Part shown: one piece after another, positions 31,094 to 39,698 of the stretch | Numbering within the stretch: position 1 is the stretch's first letter | Layout: every line of letters begins with the position of its first letter | From: Candidatus Accumulibacter cognatus | GTDB taxonomy: Bacteria; Pseudomonadota; Gammaproteobacteria; Burkholderiales; Rhodocyclaceae | Assembly: GCA_013414765.1 (NCBI GenBank) | Contig: CP058708.1 | Span: 5,066,748 to 5,130,747 of the forward strand | Direction: 5' to 3' | Length of the DNA: 64,000 nucleotides | Program-made: the position numbers and the translations under genes | The notes under the pieces: generated by a model | What the model saw: only the letters and a program-made list of their open reading frames with translations | Database searches by the model: none | What the model was told of the DNA's origin: nothing

Positions 31094-34000
31094 CTATGAG
31101 AACAACCACCCCGCGTCGACCGGCGTTTGGCCACCATTTGCGTTCAGCAATTCGGCGATCCCGGTCAGCGTGACGCCAGCAGCGGCAGCGTCCTGAGCCG
31201 CCACGCTGAAGTACACGTCGGTCATGTCCACCGTCTGCCCATCGGACATCGTGGCACTGCTGCGCTCGAGGTGCACGTTGCCCTGACGGTCCAGGAACGG
31301 CAGCTCGGTGTAGGCGGTGGCAAGCTCGCTCACACCGGCCTCGGCGAGTGTCATCAGTTCACCGTCGTCGGTCTGGTGGTTGCCGTTGGCGTCCCGCCAG
31401 ATCCTCAGATCAGCAAAGGCTGCGTCGGCAGCATTGACCAGACCATCGCCATTGCTGTCGTATTCTGCGAGCTGTGCAAAACCCGCCCCCTTGGCTGTGC
31501 CGCCGAACAGTTCGCTGATGCTGTCGACCTTGCCATTGCCGTTCTTGTCGACCGCCAGGAAACCGTCGCCACCCGAGAGCCACCCCGAAGCGACCGCACC
31601 GCCATTGCCGAAAAGGTCGAAACTGCCACCTGAATCGGCGCGGCTGACGGTCTGGATACCATTGCCGTCGAGGTCGATGGCGATCGGCGTGATGCCGGCG
31701 TCACGGGTCAGGTCATTCTGGCCGGAAACCAACGTAAATGCGCTGGTCTTGGTGACATTGGTGGTGGCTATGGCGTCACCGGCGACGTCGGAGTCGATTG
31801 AGTCATTGCTCCCCGTGTCCTTGACCGCCCACTTCCAGTTGCTCATGTTGTTCCACTGCCCGTAGTTATAGTGCTGGACATTGGTCTTGTCGAACTGAAG
31901 GACGTAGGTGCCTGGATCGAGGTTGCTGAACAGGTAGTTACCGCTGCTATTGGTGGTGGTCGTGGCCAGTACCGTGGTGCCGGCGGCATTCATCAGTTTG
32001 ACGGTGATGCCTTTGATACCGGGTTCGCTGGCATCCTGGACATTGTCGTGATCCATGTCATCCCAGACCTTGTCGCCAACCGAAGCCTTCCGGTAGAGGC
32101 CCGCATCCCAGCTCAGGTCGTTTTCACCGCTGATCAGTGTCGTGAGAACAGTCTTGCCAGTTGTCGAATCGATATCGGAGTCGGTCGCATCATTTCCGCC
32201 CTGATCCTTCGGCGAAACGTAATAACCCGTCGGCGCGACAACCTGTACCTTGTAGTCACCCGGAGTGAGGTTGCTGAATAGGTAATTGCCGCTGGCATTG
32301 GTGGTGGTCGTAGCGACGGTGCCATCCGACGAGTTGAGCAACTTGACGGTCACCCCACTGATCCCGTTTTCGCCCGTATCTTGAACCCCGTTGGCGTTGA
32401 GATCCTCCCAGACGCGGTCGCCGAGCGAGGCCAGAATGGGTTGCGCAGCCGGATTCTTGTAATGGCTGAGGTCGGAGTCGGAAGTAGCGCCCGGAGCCGT
32501 CACTGTCGCCTTGTTCTCATAAACGCCCGGGGAGGATTGCCGAACCGTCAGATTCTCGATCTTGAACCGATCCTCCGGCGTGGTATCGCCCGTCCAGCCG
32601 GAAATCACCAGCACGTTGCCGGATACATTGCCCGCGTTCAGGTCGGCCAGTCGGGTCGAGCTGAGGTCGGTCAGATTGACCTCGGTGAATCCCAACGCGG
32701 TGAGATCGGCGTCACTGAGCATCGTGTCATGGTTGTTGAACGGGTCGCTGCGCGTGCCGATCCACACCGACATGTCGCTATCGCCGACGACATAGCCCAG
32801 GAAGGCCGAATCGACGACCACATTCTGATTGAACTCGAACAGCACGTAGTTGTCCCGCCCGCCCAGGTTGTCCACCGTATGCGTGTCGCCACTGCCGCTC
32901 TCGCTGCTGTCGGTCACGCCAAGTCCGCCACCGTAGCTGCCGAGGTAGGCTTGCGCCCAAGTGCCGGTGCTTTGATCGCGGCTGAAGGCGCTGGTCTTGA
33001 CCGACAGGGCACCGGAGGTGAAGGTGCGAACGTTGCCGTCGCTCCCGTCCGTAGCGCTGCTGCCCGAAAAGTCGAAGGTGGTCGCGGCGCCCGCAGCCGT
33101 AAGGTTCTGGACAGTGCCGGTCGCCTTGTATAGCCAAGCCTCGCCCGGGTCCAGCAGATTGTTGGTATTGGTGTCACCCGATTGATAGGTGATCTTGCCG
33201 TTGGCCACCGAGAGGTCGTCCGCTGTGTTCCCGGTCGTGCCGTTGTCGTCGACAATCGCCACATCATTTTTCGCAAACGCCACGTTGCCCGTATTGGTCA
33301 CCTTGTAGGTCCAGGTGACGCTCGAACCGGGTGTCAGGACCGGCACCCCCGCGCCATTGGCAGCATCCTCGTTGTCGTAGTCGGGAGCAGTCGCATTGCT
33401 GTTGCTCGGCCCGTTGGTGGTCTTCTCGATGTCGATCTTCGGCGTTGGGGTCGGCACAACCGGATTCTTGTAATGGCTGAGGTCGGAGTCGGAAGTAGCG
33501 CCCGGAGCCGTCACTGTCGCCTTGTTCTCATAAACACCCGAGACCGGCTGGACCGTCAGATTCTCGATCTTGAACCGATCCTCCGGCGTGGTATCGCCCG
33601 TCCAGCCGGAAATCACCAGCACGTTGCCGGATACATTGCCCGCGTTCAGGTCGGCCAGTCGGGTCGAGCTGAGGTCGGTCAGATTGACCTCGGTGAATCC
33701 CAACGCGGTGAGATCGGCGTCACTGAGCATCGTGTCATGGTTGTTGAACGGGTCGCTGCGCGTGCCGATCCACACCGACATGTCGCTATCGCCGACGACA
33801 TAGCCCAGGAAGGCCGAATCGACGACCACATTCTGATTGAACTCGAACAGCACGTAGTTGTCCCGCCCGCCCAGGTTGTCCACCGTATGCGTGTCGCCAC
33901 TGCCGCTCTCGCTGCTGTCGGTCACGCCAAGTCCGCCACCGTAGCTGCCGAGGTAGGCTTGCGCCCAAGTGCCGGTGCTTTGATCGCGGCTGAAGGCGCT

Positions 34001-37000
34001 GGTCTTGACCGACAGGGCACCGGAGGTGAAGGTGCGAACGTTGCCGTCGCTCCCGTCCGTAGCGCTGCTGCCCGAAAAGTCGAAGGTGGTCGCGGCGCCC
34101 GCAGCCGTAAGGTTCTGGACAGTGCCGGTCGCCTTGTATAGCCAAGCCTCGCCCGGGTCCAGCAGATTGTTGGTATTGGTGTCACCCGATTGATAGGTGA
34201 TCTTGCCGTTGGCCACCGAGAGGTCGTCCGCTGTGTTCCCGGTCGTGCCGTTGTCGTCGACAATCGCCACATCATTTTTCGCAAACGCCACGTTGCCCGT
34301 ATTGGTCACCTTGTAGGTCCAGGTGACGCTCGAACCGGGTGTCAGGACCGGCACCCCCGCGCCATTGGCAGCATCCTCGTTGTCGTAGTCGGGAGCAGTC
34401 GCATTGCTGTTGCTCGGCCCGTTGGTGGTCTTCTCGATGTCGATCTTCGGTGTCACCAGGATCACGCCCGCATCGAGCGTCGGGTTGTGTTCGCCCGAGC
34501 CCAGCGTGACGATCTGCGTCTTGCCGGTCGTGGTGTCGGCGTCGGAGTCGGAGGCGTCGTTGCCGACATTCTGACCGGTGAACACGGTGCCGGCCGGGGC
34601 GGCAAACTGCACCTGGTATTCCACGCCCGGCTTCAGGCCCGTGAATTGATAGAAACCATCCGTGCCGGTGGTGGTGGTCGCCGTGGTGTTGTCGCCCGCC
34701 GTGGCGATCAGGCCGTCGGCCCCGCCGCCGATCAGGGTCACGGTCTTGCCGCTGATGCCGGTCGCGCCGTCGTCCTGCTGGCCGTTGGCGTTGCTGTCGA
34801 GCCACAGCCGGTCGCCCAGGCTGGCGGGAACATAGACGCCCGCATCGAGCGTCGGGTTGTGTTCGCCCGAGCCCAGCGTGACGATCTGCGTCTTGCCGGT
34901 CGTGGTGTCGGCGTCGGAGTCGGAGGCGTCATTGCCGACGTTCTGGCTGGTGAACAGATAGCCCGCCGGTAGGTCGCTGAACTGCACCTGATATTCGACG
35001 CCCGGTGTCAGGCCCGTGAATTCGTAGAAACCATCCGTGCCGGTGGTGGTGGTCGCCGTGGTGTTGTCGCCCGCCGTGGCGATCAGGCCGTCGGTCCCGC
35101 CGCCGATCAGGGTCACGGTCTTGCCGCTGATGCCGGTCGCGCCGTCGTCCTGCTGGCCGTTGGCGTTGCTGTCGAGCCACAGCCGGTCGCCCAGGCTGGC
35201 GGGAGGAATCACCACGCCCGCGTCCAGCGTCGGGTTGTGTTCGCCCGGCGCCAGCGTGACGATCTGCGTCTTGCCGGTCGTGGTGTCGGCGTCGGAGTCG
35301 GAGGCGTCATTGCCGACGTTCTGGCTGGTGAACAGATAGCCCGCCGGTAGGTCGCTGAACTGCACCTGATATTCGACGCCCGGTGTCAGGCCCGTGAATT
35401 CGTAGAAACCGTCGGTGCCGGTGGTGGTGGTCGCCGTGGTGTCGCCCACACCGTTGATCAGCCCGTCGGCCCCGCCGCCGATCAGGGTCACGGTCTGGCC
35501 GCTGATGCCGGTCGCGCCGTCGTCCTGCTGGCCGTTGGCGTTGCTGTCGAGCCACAGCCGGTCGCCCAGGCTGGCGGGAGGAATCACCACGCCCGCATCC
35601 AGCGTCGGGTTGTGTTCGCCCGGCGCCAGCGTGACGATCTGCGTCTTGCCGGTCGTGGTGTCGGCGTCGGAGTCGGAGGCGTCATTGCCGACGTTCTGGC
35701 TGGTGAACAGATAGCCCGCCGGTAGGTCGCTGAACTGCACCTGATATTCGACGCCCGGTGTCAGGCCCGTGAATTCGTAGAAACCGTCGGTGCCGGTGGT
35801 GGTGGTCGCCGTGGTGTCGCCCACACCGTTGATCAGCCCGTCGGCCCCGCCGCCGATCAGGGTCACGGTCTGGCCGCTGATGCCGGTCGCGCCGTCGTCC
35901 TGCTGGCCGTTGGCGTTGCTGTCGAGCCACAGCCGGTCGCCCAGGCTGGCGGGAGGAATCACCACGCCCGCATCCAGCGTCGGGTTGTGTTCGCCCGGCG
36001 CCAGCGTGACGATCTGCGTCTTGCCGGTCGTGGTGTCGGCGTCGGAGTCGGAGGCGTCATTGCCGACGTTCTGGCTGGTGAACAGATAGCCCGCCGGTAG
36101 GTCGCTGAACTGCACCTGATATTCGACGCCCGGTGTCAGGCCCGTGAATTCGTAGAAACCATCCGTGCCGGTGGTGGTGGTCGCCGTGGTGTTGTCGCCC
36201 GCCGTGGCGATCAGGCCGTCGGTCCCGCCGCCGATCAGGGTCACGGTCTTGCCGCTGATGCCGGTCGCGCCGTCGTCCTGCTGGCCGTTGGCGTTGCTGT
36301 CGAGCCACAGCCGGTCGCCCAGGCTGGCGGGAGGAATCACGACGCCCGCATCCAGCGTCGGGTTGTGTTCGCCCGGCGCCAGCGTGACGATCTGCGTCTT
36401 GCCGGTCGTGGTGTCGGCGTCGGAGTCGGAGGCGTCATTGCCGACGTTCTGGCTGGTGAACAGATAGCCCGCCGGTAGGTCGCTGAACTGCACCTGATAT
36501 TCGACGCCCGGTGTCAGGCCCGTGAATTCATAGAAACCATCCGTGCCGGTGGTGGTGGTCGCCGTGGTGTTGTCGCCCGCCGTGGCGATCAGGCCGTCGG
36601 TCCCGCCGCCGATCAGGGTCACGGTCTTGCCGCTGATGCCGGTCGCGCCGTCGTCCTGCTGGCCGTTGGCGTTGCTGTCGAGCCACAGCCGGTCGCCCAG
36701 GCTGGCGGGAGGAATCACGACGCCCGCATCCAGCGTCGGGTTGTGTTCGCCCGGCGCCAGCGTGACGATCTGCGTCTTGCCGGTCGTGGTGTCGGCGTCG
36801 GAGTCGGAGGCGTCATTGCCGACGTTCTGGCTGGTGAACAGATAGCCCGCCGGTAGGTCGCTGAACTGCACCTGATATTCGACGCCCGGTGTCAGGCCCG
36901 TGAATTCATAGAAACCATCCGTGCCGGTGGTGGTGGTCGCCGTGGTGTTGTCGCCCGCCGTGGCGATCAGGCCGTCGGTCCCGCCGCCGATCAGGGTCAC

Positions 37001-38443
37001 GGTCTGGCCACTGATGCCGGTCGCGCCGTCGTCCTGCTGGCCGTTGGCGTTGCTGTCGAGCCACAGCCGGTCGCCCAGGCTGGCGGGAGGAATCACCACG
37101 CCCGCATCCAGCGTCGGGTTGTGTTCACCCGAGCCCAGCGTGACGATCTGCGTCTTGCCGGTCGTGGTGTCGGCGTCGGAGTCGCTCATGTCGTTGCCGA
37201 CGTTCTGACCGGTGAACACGGTGCCCGCCGGGGCGGCAAACTGTACCTGGTATTCCACGCCCGGTGTCAGGCCCGTGAATTCGTAGAAACCATCCGTGCC
37301 GGTGGTGGTGGTCGCCGTGGTGTTGTCGCCCGCCGTGGCGATCAGGCCGTCGGTCCCGCCGCCGATCAGGGTCACGGTCTGGCCGCTGATGCCGGTCGCG
37401 CCGTCGTCCTGCTGGCCGTTGGCGTTGCTGTCGAACCACAGCCGGTCGCCCAGGCTGGCGGGCTGGACCAGCCCGGCGTCGATGGTCTGATTCGACCCTC
37501 CTGGGGGAAGTGTAACGACATGACTGAATCCAGAAGTTACATGTGCGTCGCTGTCGGCCGCATCCTGAGCGTTGCCGTTTGCATCCTTCGTAGTGAACTG
37601 ATATGAGGTCGGCGCAATGAATTTCACCTGATAGTTACCCGCCTTGAGGCCAGTGAACTGGTAGTAACCATGCTCGACTGCTGCGGTACTGAAATCGTCG
37701 CCGGTCTTGGTGCTCGAAATGAAATTGCCGCTGCCGTCGTACAATTCGACGACCACATTGTCGACGCCAGCCTCATTGGAATCCTGAAGGCCGTTGCCAT
37801 TACCATCAAACCAAACGTAGTCGCCGAGTCTGGCACTCTGCAGCTGGATGATCAGCGGCTGTACGTTGCCCGTCGGGTCAATGAATGTCGTGAAGAACGC
37901 ATCGGTTGGCAATACGCCGTTACCGCTGGCGATGGCGATGGCGGATTGAGACACCAGGAAGTCGATGTCAGCGGAGCTGACCACGTTATTGCCGCCGTCA
38001 TTCAGGAAGGGCGTCTGGCCTGCAGCGATAATCTGGGCATCGGTAAAGCCGTTGATCTTCCAGATGGCGGTCTGCACTTCACCGTAGTTGAATTGGCCAC
38101 CGAACTTGGGATCGGAAGTCAGATTTTGCGCCAGCAGCCAGTTGATTCGATCGGTCTGTAGCTGCGTCATCACCAGCGAACCGGATGGATCAAACGATGG
38201 TACCGTATTGCCAGGGTAGTTCGTCGTGCCGGAATAGGTGGTCGGCGACAAATTGATGTCGATCAAGGGGGTAAGGCAATAGGCGTCATACACGCCATTG
38301 GGAAGCAACGGGTCTGTGCTGTTCGTGACGATCAGGTCAAGGAAACTCGGCGCACCCTGGTCTGGCTGCTGGGTTGCCGGATTGAATGAAGTGCCGGCCG
38401 CGTTGGTCGCTGGAGAGGTGACACGGATAGTGAATGTGCTCAT
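31094..38443 (-). CDS. giant SdrD_B-repeat surface protein with putative thioester head domain
   Basis: 2449 residues without an obvious Sec signal peptide. Order: N-terminal domain (1-205) with YCLTPL (Cys56) and YGEVQTAIWKI (Gln124), resembling Cys-Gln thioester domains; one divergent SdrD_B repeat; eight nearly identical SdrD_B repeats (about 327-1330; each begins ASLGDRLWLDSNANGQQDDG); two 330-residue repeats (about 1331-2000) combining a DUF11-like half (VTWTYKVTNTGNVAF) with a half resembling PEP-CTERM surface proteins (GGLGVTDSSESGSG, VDNLGGRDNYVLFEF); two more SdrD_B repeats; and a C-terminal region with Ca-binding loops (DLDGNGIQT, DKNGNGKVDSISELFG, DSNGDGLVNAAD). The glycine/aspartate-rich C-terminus and missing signal peptide fit type I secretion (inference). 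It is likely an adhesin or biofilm matrix protein. No secretion genes are adjacent. Confidence 0.88.
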   Translation of the reverse strand: MSTFTIRVTSPATNAAGTSFNPATQQPDQGAPSFLDLIVTNSTDPLLPNGVYDAYCLTPLIDINLSPTTYSGTTNYPGNTVPSFDPSGSLVMTQLQTDRINWLLAQNLTSDPKFGGQFNYGEVQTAIWKINGFTDAQIIAAGQTPFLNDGGNNVVSSADIDFLVSQSAIAIASGNGVLPTDAFFTTFIDPTGNVQPLIIQLQSARLGDYVWFDGNGNGLQDSNEAGVDNVVVELYDGSGNFISSTKTGDDFSTAAVEHGYYQFTGLKAGNYQVKFIAPTSYQFTTKDANGNAQDAADSDAHVTSGFSHVVTLPPGGSNQTIDAGLVQPASLGDRLWFDSNANGQQDDGATGISGQTVTLIGGGTDGLIATAGDNTTATTTTGTDGFYEFTGLTPGVEYQVQFAAPAGTVFTGQNVGNDMSDSDADTTTGKTQIVTLGSGEHNPTLDAGVVIPPASLGDRLWLDSNANGQQDDGATGISGQTVTLIGGGTDGLIATAGDNTTATTTTGTDGFYEFTGLTPGVEYQVQFSDLPAGYLFTSQNVGNDASDSDADTTTGKTQIVTLAPGEHNPTLDAGVVIPPASLGDRLWLDSNANGQQDDGATGISGKTVTLIGGGTDGLIATAGDNTTATTTTGTDGFYEFTGLTPGVEYQVQFSDLPAGYLFTSQNVGNDASDSDADTTTGKTQIVTLAPGEHNPTLDAGVVIPPASLGDRLWLDSNANGQQDDGATGISGKTVTLIGGGTDGLIATAGDNTTATTTTGTDGFYEFTGLTPGVEYQVQFSDLPAGYLFTSQNVGNDASDSDADTTTGKTQIVTLAPGEHNPTLDAGVVIPPASLGDRLWLDSNANGQQDDGATGISGQTVTLIGGGADGLINGVGDTTATTTTGTDGFYEFTGLTPGVEYQVQFSDLPAGYLFTSQNVGNDASDSDADTTTGKTQIVTLAPGEHNPTLDAGVVIPPASLGDRLWLDSNANGQQDDGATGISGQTVTLIGGGADGLINGVGDTTATTTTGTDGFYEFTGLTPGVEYQVQFSDLPAGYLFTSQNVGNDASDSDADTTTGKTQIVTLAPGEHNPTLDAGVVIPPASLGDRLWLDSNANGQQDDGATGISGKTVTLIGGGTDGLIATAGDNTTATTTTGTDGFYEFTGLTPGVEYQVQFSDLPAGYLFTSQNVGNDASDSDADTTTGKTQIVTLGSGEHNPTLDAGVYVPASLGDRLWLDSNANGQQDDGATGISGKTVTLIGGGADGLIATAGDNTTATTTTGTDGFYQFTGLKPGVEYQVQFAAPAGTVFTGQNVGNDASDSDADTTTGKTQIVTLGSGEHNPTLDAGVILVTPKIDIEKTTNGPSNSNATAPDYDNEDAANGAGVPVLTPGSSVTWTYKVTNTGNVAFAKNDVAIVDDNGTTGNTADDLSVANGKITYQSGDTNTNNLLDPGEAWLYKATGTVQNLTAAGAATTFDFSGSSATDGSDGNVRTFTSGALSVKTSAFSRDQSTGTWAQAYLGSYGGGLGVTDSSESGSGDTHTVDNLGGRDNYVLFEFNQNVVVDSAFLGYVVGDSDMSVWIGTRSDPFNNHDTMLSDADLTALGFTEVNLTDLSSTRLADLNAGNVSGNVLVISGWTGDTTPEDRFKIENLTVQPVSGVYENKATVTAPGATSDSDLSHYKNPVVPTPTPKIDIEKTTNGPSNSNATAPDYDNEDAANGAGVPVLTPGSSVTWTYKVTNTGNVAFAKNDVAIVDDNGTTGNTADDLSVANGKITYQSGDTNTNNLLDPGEAWLYKATGTVQNLTAAGAATTFDFSGSSATDGSDGNVRTFTSGALSVKTSAFSRDQSTGTWAQAYLGSYGGGLGVTDSSESGSGDTHTVDNLGGRDNYVLFEFNQNVVVDSAFLGYVVGDSDMSVWIGTRSDPFNNHDTMLSDADLTALGFTEVNLTDLSSTRLADLNAGNVSGNVLVISGWTGDTTPEDRFKIENLTVRQSSPGVYENKATVTAPGATSDSDLSHYKNPAAQPILASLGDRVWEDLNANGVQDTGENGISGVTVKLLNSSDGTVATTTTNASGNYLFSNLTPGDYKVQVVAPTGYYVSPKDQGGNDATDSDIDSTTGKTVLTTLISGENDLSWDAGLYRKASVGDKVWDDMDHDNVQDASEPGIKGITVKLMNAAGTTVLATTTTNSSGNYLFSNLDPGTYVLQFDKTNVQHYNYGQWNNMSNWKWAVKDTGSNDSIDSDVAGDAIATTNVTKTSAFTLVSGQNDLTRDAGITPIAIDLDGNGIQTVSRADSGGSFDLFGNGGAVASGWLSGGDGFLAVDKNGNGKVDSISELFGGTAKGAGFAQLAEYDSNGDGLVNAADAAFADLRIWRDANGNHQTDDGELMTLAEAGVSELATAYTELPFLDRQGNVHLERSSATMSDGQTVDMTDVYFSVAAQDAAAAGVTLTGIAELLNANGGQTPVDAGWLFS
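32451..34452 (-). repeat. two tandem copies of a ~1-kb segment in the adhesin gene
   Basis: Copy one (32451-33447) and copy two (33462-34452) are almost identical at the nucleotide level, with differences concentrated where the copies join (around 32528-32545 and 33535-33552). The near-perfect identity, including synonymous sites, indicates recent duplication or ongoing gene conversion. Confidence 0.92.
34453..37462 (-). repeat. array of eight 375-378-bp tandem repeats in the adhesin gene
   Basis: The marker GCCACAGCCGG recurs at 34801, 35176, 35551, 35926, 36304, 36682 and 37060, and as ACCACAGCCGG at 37435, giving periods of 375 or 378 bp. Each unit encodes one SdrD_B domain of 125-126 residues. 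The 3-bp difference reflects two variants of a loop (GGTDGLIATAGDN or GGADGLINGVGD). Units are mosaics of a few variant segments. Confidence 0.95.
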
Positions 38444-38589
38444 GGCTTGGGTTTCTGGGTCAAAGATAAGTAGTCAGAACAGCCATTTTGCATCCTGCTG
38501 CGAATTTCACCAGGACTTCTTCCACAGACGCTGAAGATGATGGCAGTCGGCTTGATGATCGGCACCTAACGCCGAAAACGCCGGGAATC

Positions 38590-38615
38590 AAGGGGCAGGA
38601 ATCGAAATGCCCCTT
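38590..38615 (-). terminator. probable terminator after the mini PEP-CTERM gene
   Basis: AAGGGGCA and TGCCCCTT form an 8-bp stem with a 10-nt loop. On the minus strand the stem ends in TT and is followed by GATTCC, a short T-poor tail. It lies 23 nt after the stop at 38639 and before the adhesin gene. Confidence 0.5.
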
Positions 38616-38638
38616 CTCCAGGCGTGAGTGACTCGGCT

Positions 38639-38788
38639 TTACTTCTTGTTACGCCGGGCTACCAGCATCGCGACAGCTGCAGCGGCTACCAGCGCCAGCG
38701 ATTCGGGCTCCGGAACGTGCAGCACAGGAGCCGCAACAGCAGAAATTGCAGTAGACATCAGGACAGCGATAGAGAACAGTGCGCGCAT
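38639..38788 (-). CDS. 49-residue mini PEP-CTERM protein
   Basis: The ATG at 38788 follows an AGGAG ribosome site 8 nt away; the frame ends at TAA 38639. The product has a signal peptide (MRALFSIAVLMSTAISAVAA) and, nine residues later, a PEP-CTERM sorting signal: VPEPESLALVAAAAVAMLVA followed by RRNKK. In exosortase systems this tail (VPEP, hydrophobic helix, basic end) is recognised and cut by EpsH-type exosortase, so the mature peptide would be only a handful of residues. A strong RpoN promoter lies upstream. It precedes the adhesin gene on the same strand but a hairpin separates them. Function unknown. Confidence 0.82.
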   Translation of the reverse strand: MRALFSIAVLMSTAISAVAAPVLHVPEPESLALVAAAAVAMLVARRNKK

Positions 38789-38869
38789 GGGAAAACTCCT
38801 CTTGAGAACAGTTGATCATTGATTAACACTTTTACTGCCCACTGATTGAGCGGCAGCCAAAGCGCACAA

Positions 38870-38886
38870 AGCATCAATCGTGCCAA
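38870..38886 (-). promoter_or_regulatory. sigma-54 (RpoN) -24/-12 promoter of the mini PEP-CTERM gene
   Basis: The minus strand reads TTGGCACGATTGATGCT, matching YTGGCACGRNNNTTGCW at all specified positions but one, with GG and GC exactly 10 nt apart. The predicted start is about 70 nt upstream of the ATG at 38788. An upstream activator (PrsR-type in known exosortase systems) would be needed; none is in the window. Confidence 0.8.
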
Positions 38887-38983
38887 CTGATCTCATGATC
38901 TGGTTTAAAAATGAATCTCGTCTTCGGCGACAGGATCGTCCCACCGAACTGTAAGAAATTCCGACACCTGGTCGGCAGCGATG

Positions 38984-39011
38984 TTGACGACCAACTATTT
39001 CAGACTAAACT
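38984..39011 (+). promoter_or_regulatory. candidate promoter of the toxin-antitoxin pair
   Basis: TTGACG (38984-38989) and TAAACT (39006-39011) are 16 bp apart, placing a start about 28 nt before the antitoxin ATG. No clear operator palindrome was identified. Confidence 0.35.
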
Positions 39012-39045
39012 AAGCGGACTAGATTTACAGGCGCAGGAGCCGTTC

Positions 39046-39297
39046 ATGCAAACGTTCAACATTCACGATGCCAAGACCCAGCTATCTCGCCTGGTCGAAC
39101 AAGCCGCCAAGGGTGAGTCATTCGTGATCGCCAAAGCCGGTAAGCCTATGGTCAAGGTGATGGCGCTCAATGCACCAGAGTCCTCTCAAATGAAACGGAT
39201 CGGCTTTCTGGCCGGTCAGGTCACTGTGCCGGCAGCCAGGGTATTCAATGCGTTGGGAAGCGAAGAAATCGTAGCGATGTTCGCTTGTGAGGAATGA
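39046..39297 (+). CDS. Phd/YefM-family antitoxin
   Basis: 83 residues from the ATG at 39046, preceded by CAGGAG; the frame is open upstream but without a ribosome site. The Phd/YefM fold signature is FNIHDAKTQLSRLVEQAAKG, then SFVIAKAGKPMVKVM. These antitoxins bind their own promoter and neutralise a PIN-domain or RelE-type toxin. The stop overlaps the toxin ATG by 4 nt, the usual TA arrangement. Confidence 0.9.
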   Translation: MQTFNIHDAKTQLSRLVEQAAKGESFVIAKAGKPMVKVMALNAPESSQMKRIGFLAGQVTVPAARVFNALGSEEIVAMFACEE

Positions 39298-39698
39298 AGC
39301 TCCTGCTCGATACTCATCTGCTGCTTTGGAGCGGGGTGTCGGGAAACGACACGGCGAGCGGATCTCTGCCGACGGAGGTGTCCGCACTGATCAAGGACGA
39401 GACGAATGCCTTGTATTTCAGCCCCGCCAGCATTTGGGAGGTCGCCATCAAGAATGCGCTCGCCAGGGCCGACTTTCGTGTTGACCCGCACCTGTTCCGG
39501 CGCGCACTCCTCGACAACGGCTATATCGAGCTGCCCATCAACAGCGAGCACACCGCAGGGTTGGCAAATTTGCCTGATCATCACCAAGATCCTTTCGACC
39601 GACTTCTGATTGCCCAGGCGACGGTCGAAGGCATCACTCTGCTGACCAATGACGTCCAGGTGGCCGCCTACCGCATGAGTCCGATTCGGCTGGTCTAA
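39294..39698 (+). CDS. vapC: VapC-like PIN-domain toxin
   Basis: 134 residues. Acidic PIN residues are in LLLDTHLLLW (Asp6), SPASIWEVAIK (Glu), DPFDRLLIAQA (Asp) and LLTNDVQ (Asp). It is expected to be a Mg-dependent endoribonuclease acting on tRNA or rRNA, held in check by the upstream antitoxin. The subgroup with Phd/YefM partners and the opening MKLLLDTHLLLW is widespread. It looks intact. Confidence 0.9.
   Translation: MKLLLDTHLLLWSGVSGNDTASGSLPTEVSALIKDETNALYFSPASIWEVAIKNALARADFRVDPHLFRRALLDNGYIELPINSEHTAGLANLPDHHQDPFDRLLIAQATVEGITLLTNDVQVAAYRMSPIRLV

Follow-up and report, generated by a model that had tools for sequence, protein, structure and literature searches.

A near cargo-free 49-residue PEP-CTERM protein of Candidatus Accumulibacter and the large adhesin-like gene that recurs beside it

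The window analyzed here, that is, the whole stretch of 64,000 nucleotides from Candidatus Accumulibacter cognatus, contains on its minus strand a very short gene for a PEP-CTERM protein (the micro gene), preceded by promoter motifs and followed by a very long gene (the partner gene). In the order of transcription, the features are:

38950..38966, minus strand: PEP-CTERM box (Haft motif 1) TGTCGGAATTTCTTACA, ending in CTTACA, 64 nt upstream of the sigma-54 site
38870..38885, minus strand: sigma-54 −24/−12 site TGGCACGATTGATGCT, agreeing with 10 of 11 consensus positions
38797..38804, minus strand: Shine-Dalgarno sequence AAGAGGAG of the micro gene, 8 nt before the ATG, recognized from the sequence
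38639..38788, minus strand: micro PEP-CTERM open reading frame of 49 aa, translation MRALFSIAVLMSTAISAVAAPVLHVPEPESLALVAAAAVAMLVARRNKK, based on TIGR02595/PF07589, homologs and dN/dS; signal peptide at residues 1-19, linker APVLHV at 20-25, tail at 26-49 (PEPES, hydrophobic helix, RRNKK)
38590..38615, minus strand: stem-loop AAGGGGCA / TGCCCCTT after the micro-gene stop codon, z −2.15 for 38560-38645, no U-tract
31094..38443, minus strand: partner gene of 2449 aa, 195 nt downstream of the micro gene, with a thioester-domain-like N-terminus and SdrD_B repeats
37829..38443, minus strand: thioester-domain-like region, partner residues 1-205, with Cys56, Q124 of EVQTAIW and Q195 of VQPLI

On the plus strand, divergent from the micro gene, lie genes for a Phd/YefM-type antitoxin and a PIN-domain toxin (38911-39698). 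The antitoxin frame as listed runs into the PEP-CTERM box, which makes the in-frame ATG at 39046 the probable true start.

The micro-protein scores 25.1 bits against TIGR02595 (cutoff 16) and 24.9 bits against PF07589 (cutoff 20.7). These scores and the architecture bear out the claim of an earlier note on this DNA that the encoded PEP-CTERM protein has hardly any mature part; the same note had counted nine residues between signal peptide and tail, and the linker before the PEP motif has six (APVLHV), with signal cleavage placed by eye after AVA (residue 19). A signal peptide with a basic start, a hydrophobic core and [AV]xA at positions 17-19 was likewise recognized by eye in the 16 members of the family examined. 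Among the TIGR02595 matches listed for the genome of the window, 36 in number and 35 of them over the cutoff, the only other short frames have 62 and 66 aa, with no signal-peptide start visible by eye in either, and the next shortest frame has 196 aa, so that the micro gene stands apart in its own genome. With a good ribosome-binding site, an intact frame and full-length relatives, the 49-aa frame is confirmed as a real gene. Exosortase genes are present in the same genome, and the product is probably cleaved by exosortase.

A search of 61 genomes with the single sequence returned the query itself and nine full-length relatives from the same genus, at E-values of 5.1e-23 to 2.7e-4. The 10-sequence profile, run over 28 genus genomes, recovered the ten at 1.9e-25 to 4.1e-20, a range that is partly by construction, the profile having been built from these sequences; the next match (E 2e-7) was confined to the tail and lay in a long frame. 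The micro gene is present in 10 of the 28 Accumulibacter genomes and absent from 18. The family search (199 genomes) added one member in another genus (G217), and a contig scan of GTDB species gave nine loci, comprising two repeats of genus members, one long PEP-CTERM gene and six new short frames, in Chromatium okenii, C. weissei, a Gallionellaceae MAG and three further proteobacterial MAGs. The family thus counts 17 loci of 47-52 aa, with the frame length kept. Candidates were dropped as an ordinary long PEP-CTERM gene (L082), for lack of a signal-peptide start by eye (G046, G483, G416, G134, G105:C9, G016, G026:C154, G004:C150 and two short frames of the genome of the window) or for lack of a PEP-CTERM tail (G007:C143), and three loci were duplicates (L075 = G026, L076 = G004, L103 = L077). 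Plasmid records contained no match, and the titles and abstract openings of the open-access literature name no PEP-CTERM protein this short.

The expectation of the earlier note that the frame be conserved in close relatives therefore holds at full length in the 10 of 28 genus genomes, and its concern that the tail might belong to a larger frameshifted gene is answered by the occurrence of the same short frame at 17 loci, by which a frameshifted or truncated longer gene is ruled out; none of the ten genus members belongs to a longer protein with another start at the conserved site. A remnant of a longer PEP-CTERM gene that has lost its middle, or a chance frame, would accord with the fast turnover of PEP-CTERM genes mentioned in passages of Haft 2006, but is contradicted by conservation, that is, by equal length, alignable sequence across genera, purifying selection and promoter motifs in place, and we regard it as scarcely credible.

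Searches at the level of the order (399 genomes) and class (369 genomes) revealed more distant PEP-CTERM proteins that are likewise short (about 47-63 aa) and whose linkers are unrelated, and 16 such loci, picked by eye and including G012, G017 and G105 from the genus and family searches, were examined for their neighbors. Distant short loci in this size range occur in other Proteobacteria (L084, L088, L091, L101, L104, L106, L107, L109, L121, L085, L105, L110, L059, L060, L072), some with what looks by eye like a box upstream; of these loci, just L084 and L088 adjoin a large partner within the 0.9-1.5 kb looked at. A further locus, L115:1501-1653, encodes a 50-aa micro-protein in which PIPG replaces PEP and the large partner is still next, a variant that may point to a different sorting enzyme. 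Genes this small are easily dropped by gene finders, so that the class of micro PEP-CTERM proteins may be under-counted.

In all nine micro-gene pairs compared, dN/dS lies between 0.04 and 0.45 (every value below 1; the pairs overlap), and the micro gene is under purifying selection. Summed over the nine overlapping pairs, the tail has 23 nonsynonymous changes in 458 sites (~0.05 per site), the signal peptide 28 in 359 (~0.08) and the linker 32 in 102 (~0.31); the linker, of 5-8 residues, drifts at four to six times the rate of the other two. The pair L078/L079, with saturated synonymous sites, has 1 change in 50 sites in the tail, 3.5 in 40 in the signal peptide and 4 in 11.8 in the linker. 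It is the segments presumably removed by cleavage that are kept, and the one presumably left over that drifts. The earlier note had looked to both linker and promoter for conservation; the promoter motifs are retained (box at 14 of the 17 loci), and the linker is the fastest-changing part of the gene. A linker that is not conserved fits a product whose use lies in its tail and the processing of that tail. It also speaks against a secreted peptide signal in which the residues left after both cleavages are the message: such a reading can point to an architecture that leaves only a short peptide, yet the linker changes fastest even between the close relatives G013 and G015 (4 changes in 10.7 sites), and no receptor gene was seen beside the micro gene, where none was searched by name, making a message of this kind very improbable.

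The tails were also set against those of ordinary PEP-CTERM proteins from the same genome pairs, drawn from 6 orthologous pairs among 20 long genes each of G013 and G015 and from one triple among 31 long genes of three MAGs. Per ~50 sites, micro tails have 0-1 nonsynonymous changes versus 0-5.5 in ordinary tails; in pairs that include G023, up to 6.5 changes occur in the micro tail. Special conservation of the tail as a sign of special use was rejected, ordinary tails being nearly as conserved, and does not separate the readings considered here; the micro tail is constrained as sorting signals usually are, or slightly more.

According to passages of Haft 2006, 99 of 167 proteobacterial PEP-CTERM genes are preceded by a 17-nt motif ending in TTTACA and, after a spacer of 32-92 nt, by a sigma-54 site. 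Such a box lies upstream of 14 of the 17 family members and is accompanied in 13 of the 14 by a GG-N10-GC sigma-54 site; in G027 the site picked by the script agrees at 7 of 11 positions and a better-placed one lacks the GG, hence the count of 13 rather than 14. Two of the 14 boxes score 9-10 of 11 positions, both Chromatium boxes are of a variant form, and no box was found upstream of the micro gene in G020, G013 and G217. In every one of the 14 cases all 200 shuffles scored lower, a result that overstates the case somewhat because the pattern, though it follows Haft's motifs, was set after these upstream regions had been viewed. In the genome of the window the box pattern occurs 27 times, compared with 3 for the reversed control, and for 18 of the 27 a PEP-CTERM tail follows within 4 kb, the random mean being 0.35 (35 of the 36 tails were used, one under the cutoff being dropped). 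PrsR scores over the cutoff in 27 of the 28 genus genomes, 25 of the 28 contain an exosortase, and the genome of the window belongs to both sets; G022 has the micro gene, with exosortase missing in the draft. With box, spacer, sigma-54 site and gene in succession, the micro gene has the sequence features of the PrsK/PrsR/RpoN regulon and is a putative member of it. Elsewhere in the same genome, a second, divergent exosortase-like gene (G000:C1:4540438-4541157) lies on the same strand as a nearby PEP-CTERM tail (4541214-4541291), and the two are possibly a dedicated pair.

That the promoter class is the same as that of long PEP-CTERM genes (18 of the 27 boxes precede a PEP-CTERM tail) is compatible with the simplest rival explanation, in which the micro-protein acts as a decoy or flux buffer for exosortase: induced together with the long substrates, it would occupy the enzyme or report its load to PrsK, the partner being irrelevant. 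A free linker with a kept tail, and the existence of many other short PEP-CTERM frames, also speak for a decoy.

The partner of the window contains 11 SdrD_B stretches, and three of the N-terminal pieces from seven loci extend into SdrD_B. The frame reaches 3203 aa in G010, and several partners are truncated where the contig or locus stops or have a shorter or broken frame (833 aa in L077, 851 aa in L080, 713 aa in G022). In the N-terminal domain, the Cys is conserved in 21 of 21 sequences and the Gln of the VQxAIW helix and that of the C-terminal Q-P-hydrophobic motif in 20 of 21 each; in the helix motif, TQxx-phi-W, the Thr is Val and the Trp falls below 85%. The Pfam thioester domain TED (PF08341) was listed for one of seven members, at E 0.061, without reaching the gathering score, and a sequence-profile comparison of the partner N-terminus with solved structures gave no match. 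Since the three TED motifs occur in order and the Pfam match is not significant, we call the region thioester-domain-like. All three motifs of Gram-positive thioester domains are thus present in a Gram-negative protein (37829-38443); the passages of the eLife 2015 survey (PMC4450167) on this point place thioester domains exclusively in Gram-positive bacteria. Titles and abstract openings in the open-access literature mention no pairing of PEP-CTERM and thioester proteins, and two of these papers (PMC12617251, PMC9210967) might report Gram-negative thioester domains. By eye, the partner (31094-38443) also contains two nearly identical segments of ~330 aa that hold DUF7507 and XDP1-like matches, and these, together with the many near-identical SdrD_B repeats, suggest recent internal duplication.

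The partner has no N-terminal signal peptide by eye and no match to a PEP-CTERM model, and export by a type I system may therefore be plausible. Type I export genes (the outer-membrane factor OEP, HlyD and ABC) were found divergently upstream in a scan of L078; L079 and L081 have reading frames resembling them, HlyD- and ABC-like frames were recognized by eye in G020, and none was recognized by eye in the window.

A gene of the partner type is the next gene on the same strand at 12 of the 17 family loci, six in Accumulibacter (G000, G026, G022, G010, G004 and G020, the last with its contig ending within the gene) and six elsewhere, both Chromatium species among them. The searches for the micro gene never drew on the neighboring gene; the linked loci are interrelated, and 12 of 17 is not a count of independent pairings. 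Three of the 16 distant short loci (G467, G306, G051) also have the partner beside them, in G051 next to a micro-protein with PIPG instead of PEP. Approached from the partner side, the class search found the domain in 4 of 369 genomes, with a short gene directly upstream in three; of these, the window and G734 (= L077) had already been in the profile, and the two new genomes are G051, with the short gene, and G707, without it, where the protein has 367 aa and another build. The association does not extend beyond adjacency: the partner domain is present in 12 of the 28 genus genomes, of which 6 have both genes, 4 the micro gene only, 6 the partner only and 12 neither, and genus-wide co-occurrence, considered as a further line of support, gave no clear association (one-sided hypergeometric ~0.17). 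In four genomes with the micro gene (G013, G015, G023 and G027) the draft contains no partner domain at all, and none lies beside the micro gene in G217. Conversely, no hidden micro gene was seen by eye before the lone partners of G025, G024, G005, G014 and G001, nor found by pattern in these five and before the two G009 copies. Accumulibacter thioester-like proteins without a micro gene occur at L200, L201, L208, L209, L210 and L212, and a box precedes 6 of 7 such loci. As lone partners stand behind a PEP-CTERM box, the large protein itself appears to belong to the PrsR regulon.

Members lacking a partner (G013, G015, G023 and G027 in their drafts, G217 by position) are explained by an exosortase decoy, but a decoy leaves unexplained why the same type of neighboring gene is found in Accumulibacter and Chromatium, two far-apart lineages, and we consider it unlikely, though to be taken seriously.

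The spacers between micro gene and partner contain no second box or strict sigma-54 site at any of 11 loci (a bare GG-N10-GC occurs in 7 of them), and a stem-loop after the micro stop codon folds with z at or below −2 at 7 of 9 loci, mostly without a U-tract. The arrangement resembles a single transcription unit whose two genes differ in output. These same observations would suit a leader frame of which only the translation and the stem-loop matter, setting the expression of the next gene, with the peptide itself irrelevant. Purifying selection at the protein level and the exact PEP-CTERM architecture argue against such a leader, as do micro genes that occur without a partner and partners that stand behind the same box without a micro gene; we judge it rather improbable.

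The micro frame, its conservation, its promoter motifs and its neighbor can be read directly from the DNA. The picture drawn by the earlier note, of an almost cargo-free PEP-CTERM protein that is conserved and is no frameshift fragment, stands apart from the linker length (6, not 9), and the box, the sigma-54 site and the repeated pairing with an adhesin-like gene are additions to it. Because of that repeated pairing, a role in surface adhesion is now the leading reading, ahead of the candidate roles offered in the note (decoy, signal, lipid-like anchor or regulator of exosortase). We tentatively propose, at the level of sequence, that micro gene and partner may form a single, regulated surface module, with the short protein helping to place or anchor the adhesin. 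The unit would be of the PrsR/RpoN type with the micro gene first, in the order PEP-CTERM box, sigma-54 site, micro-protein, stem-loop, large adhesin-like protein. The micro-protein, a putative exosortase-type substrate without cargo, would share a transcript with the large protein, be produced in larger amounts than it and be exported by Sec; its tail would sit in the inner membrane with the PEP motif at the periplasmic face, where exosortase would engage and probably cut it. The large protein, in which neither a signal peptide nor a PEP-CTERM tail is visible, may leave by a type I system and would then be placed, retained or anchored with the help of the micro-protein. On this model the exported tail and its processing would matter and the sequence of the 5-8-residue linker would not; as the linker is free to vary, the use of the micro-protein should be to occupy or mark an envelope site served by exosortase, thereby holding the partner.

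A more specific version would be a covalent two-part anchor, in which the thioester-like domain of the partner bonds to the amine of the micro-peptide freed by signal peptidase while exosortase fixes the other end; the micro-peptide may then be a docking stub that keeps the secreted adhesin on the cell. Such an anchor needs only an amine, which would explain the linker drift; Lys is absent from all 16 linkers examined. We consider this chemistry a long shot.

To our knowledge, the action of exosortase on its substrates, and the acceptor to which they are joined, are still open questions. A near-bare signal peptide plus sorting tag is a ready-made minimal probe of the enzyme, and with a product of 49 residues the cleaved end and the acceptor could be read by mass spectrometry. 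A cargo-free tag kept, often beside a giant adhesin, suggests that a sorting tag can be useful on its own, and if the pairing is functional it would link two anchoring chemistries in Gram-negative formers of flocs and granules that are relevant to wastewater treatment.

Among known systems, the micro-protein shares with ordinary PEP-CTERM/exosortase substrates (TIGR02595, PF07589; Haft 2006) the signal peptide, PEP motif, hydrophobic helix, basic end, and box with sigma-54 site, and differs from them in having no cargo domain, with only 5-8 residues between signal peptide and PEP, a spacing kept across genera. Passages of an Accumulibacter secretome paper report a cluster of short proteins with an abundant PEP-CTERM member; they do not identify the micro-protein. 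For PepA, the RpoN-dependent floc protein of Aquincola tertiaricarbonis, the relevant passages of Xia et al. (PMC9850573) report a mapped −24/−12 promoter and a stem-loop before the next gene, as here; the neighbor is prsT there and a large adhesin-like gene here, and the floc PepA model NF033554 (261 positions) is matched by the micro-protein in the tail only, at 21.5 bits against a cutoff of 80. The partner resembles the Gram-positive TED adhesins (PF08341), as presented in parts of PMC4450167, in carrying [YW]C, VQxAIW and a Q-P-hydrophobic motif in the same succession as a TED, with repeats after them, but it is Gram-negative, no LPXTG was noted in it and its Pfam TED match is not significant; the micro-protein itself is not a TED. 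The two genes together recall XDP1 (NF041927): partner residues 1780-1985 are XDP1-like (E 1.2e-28) and the micro-protein resembles the XDP1 tail, and, whereas both matches here are under the cutoff of that model and fall in two proteins, in XDP1 both parts belong to one.
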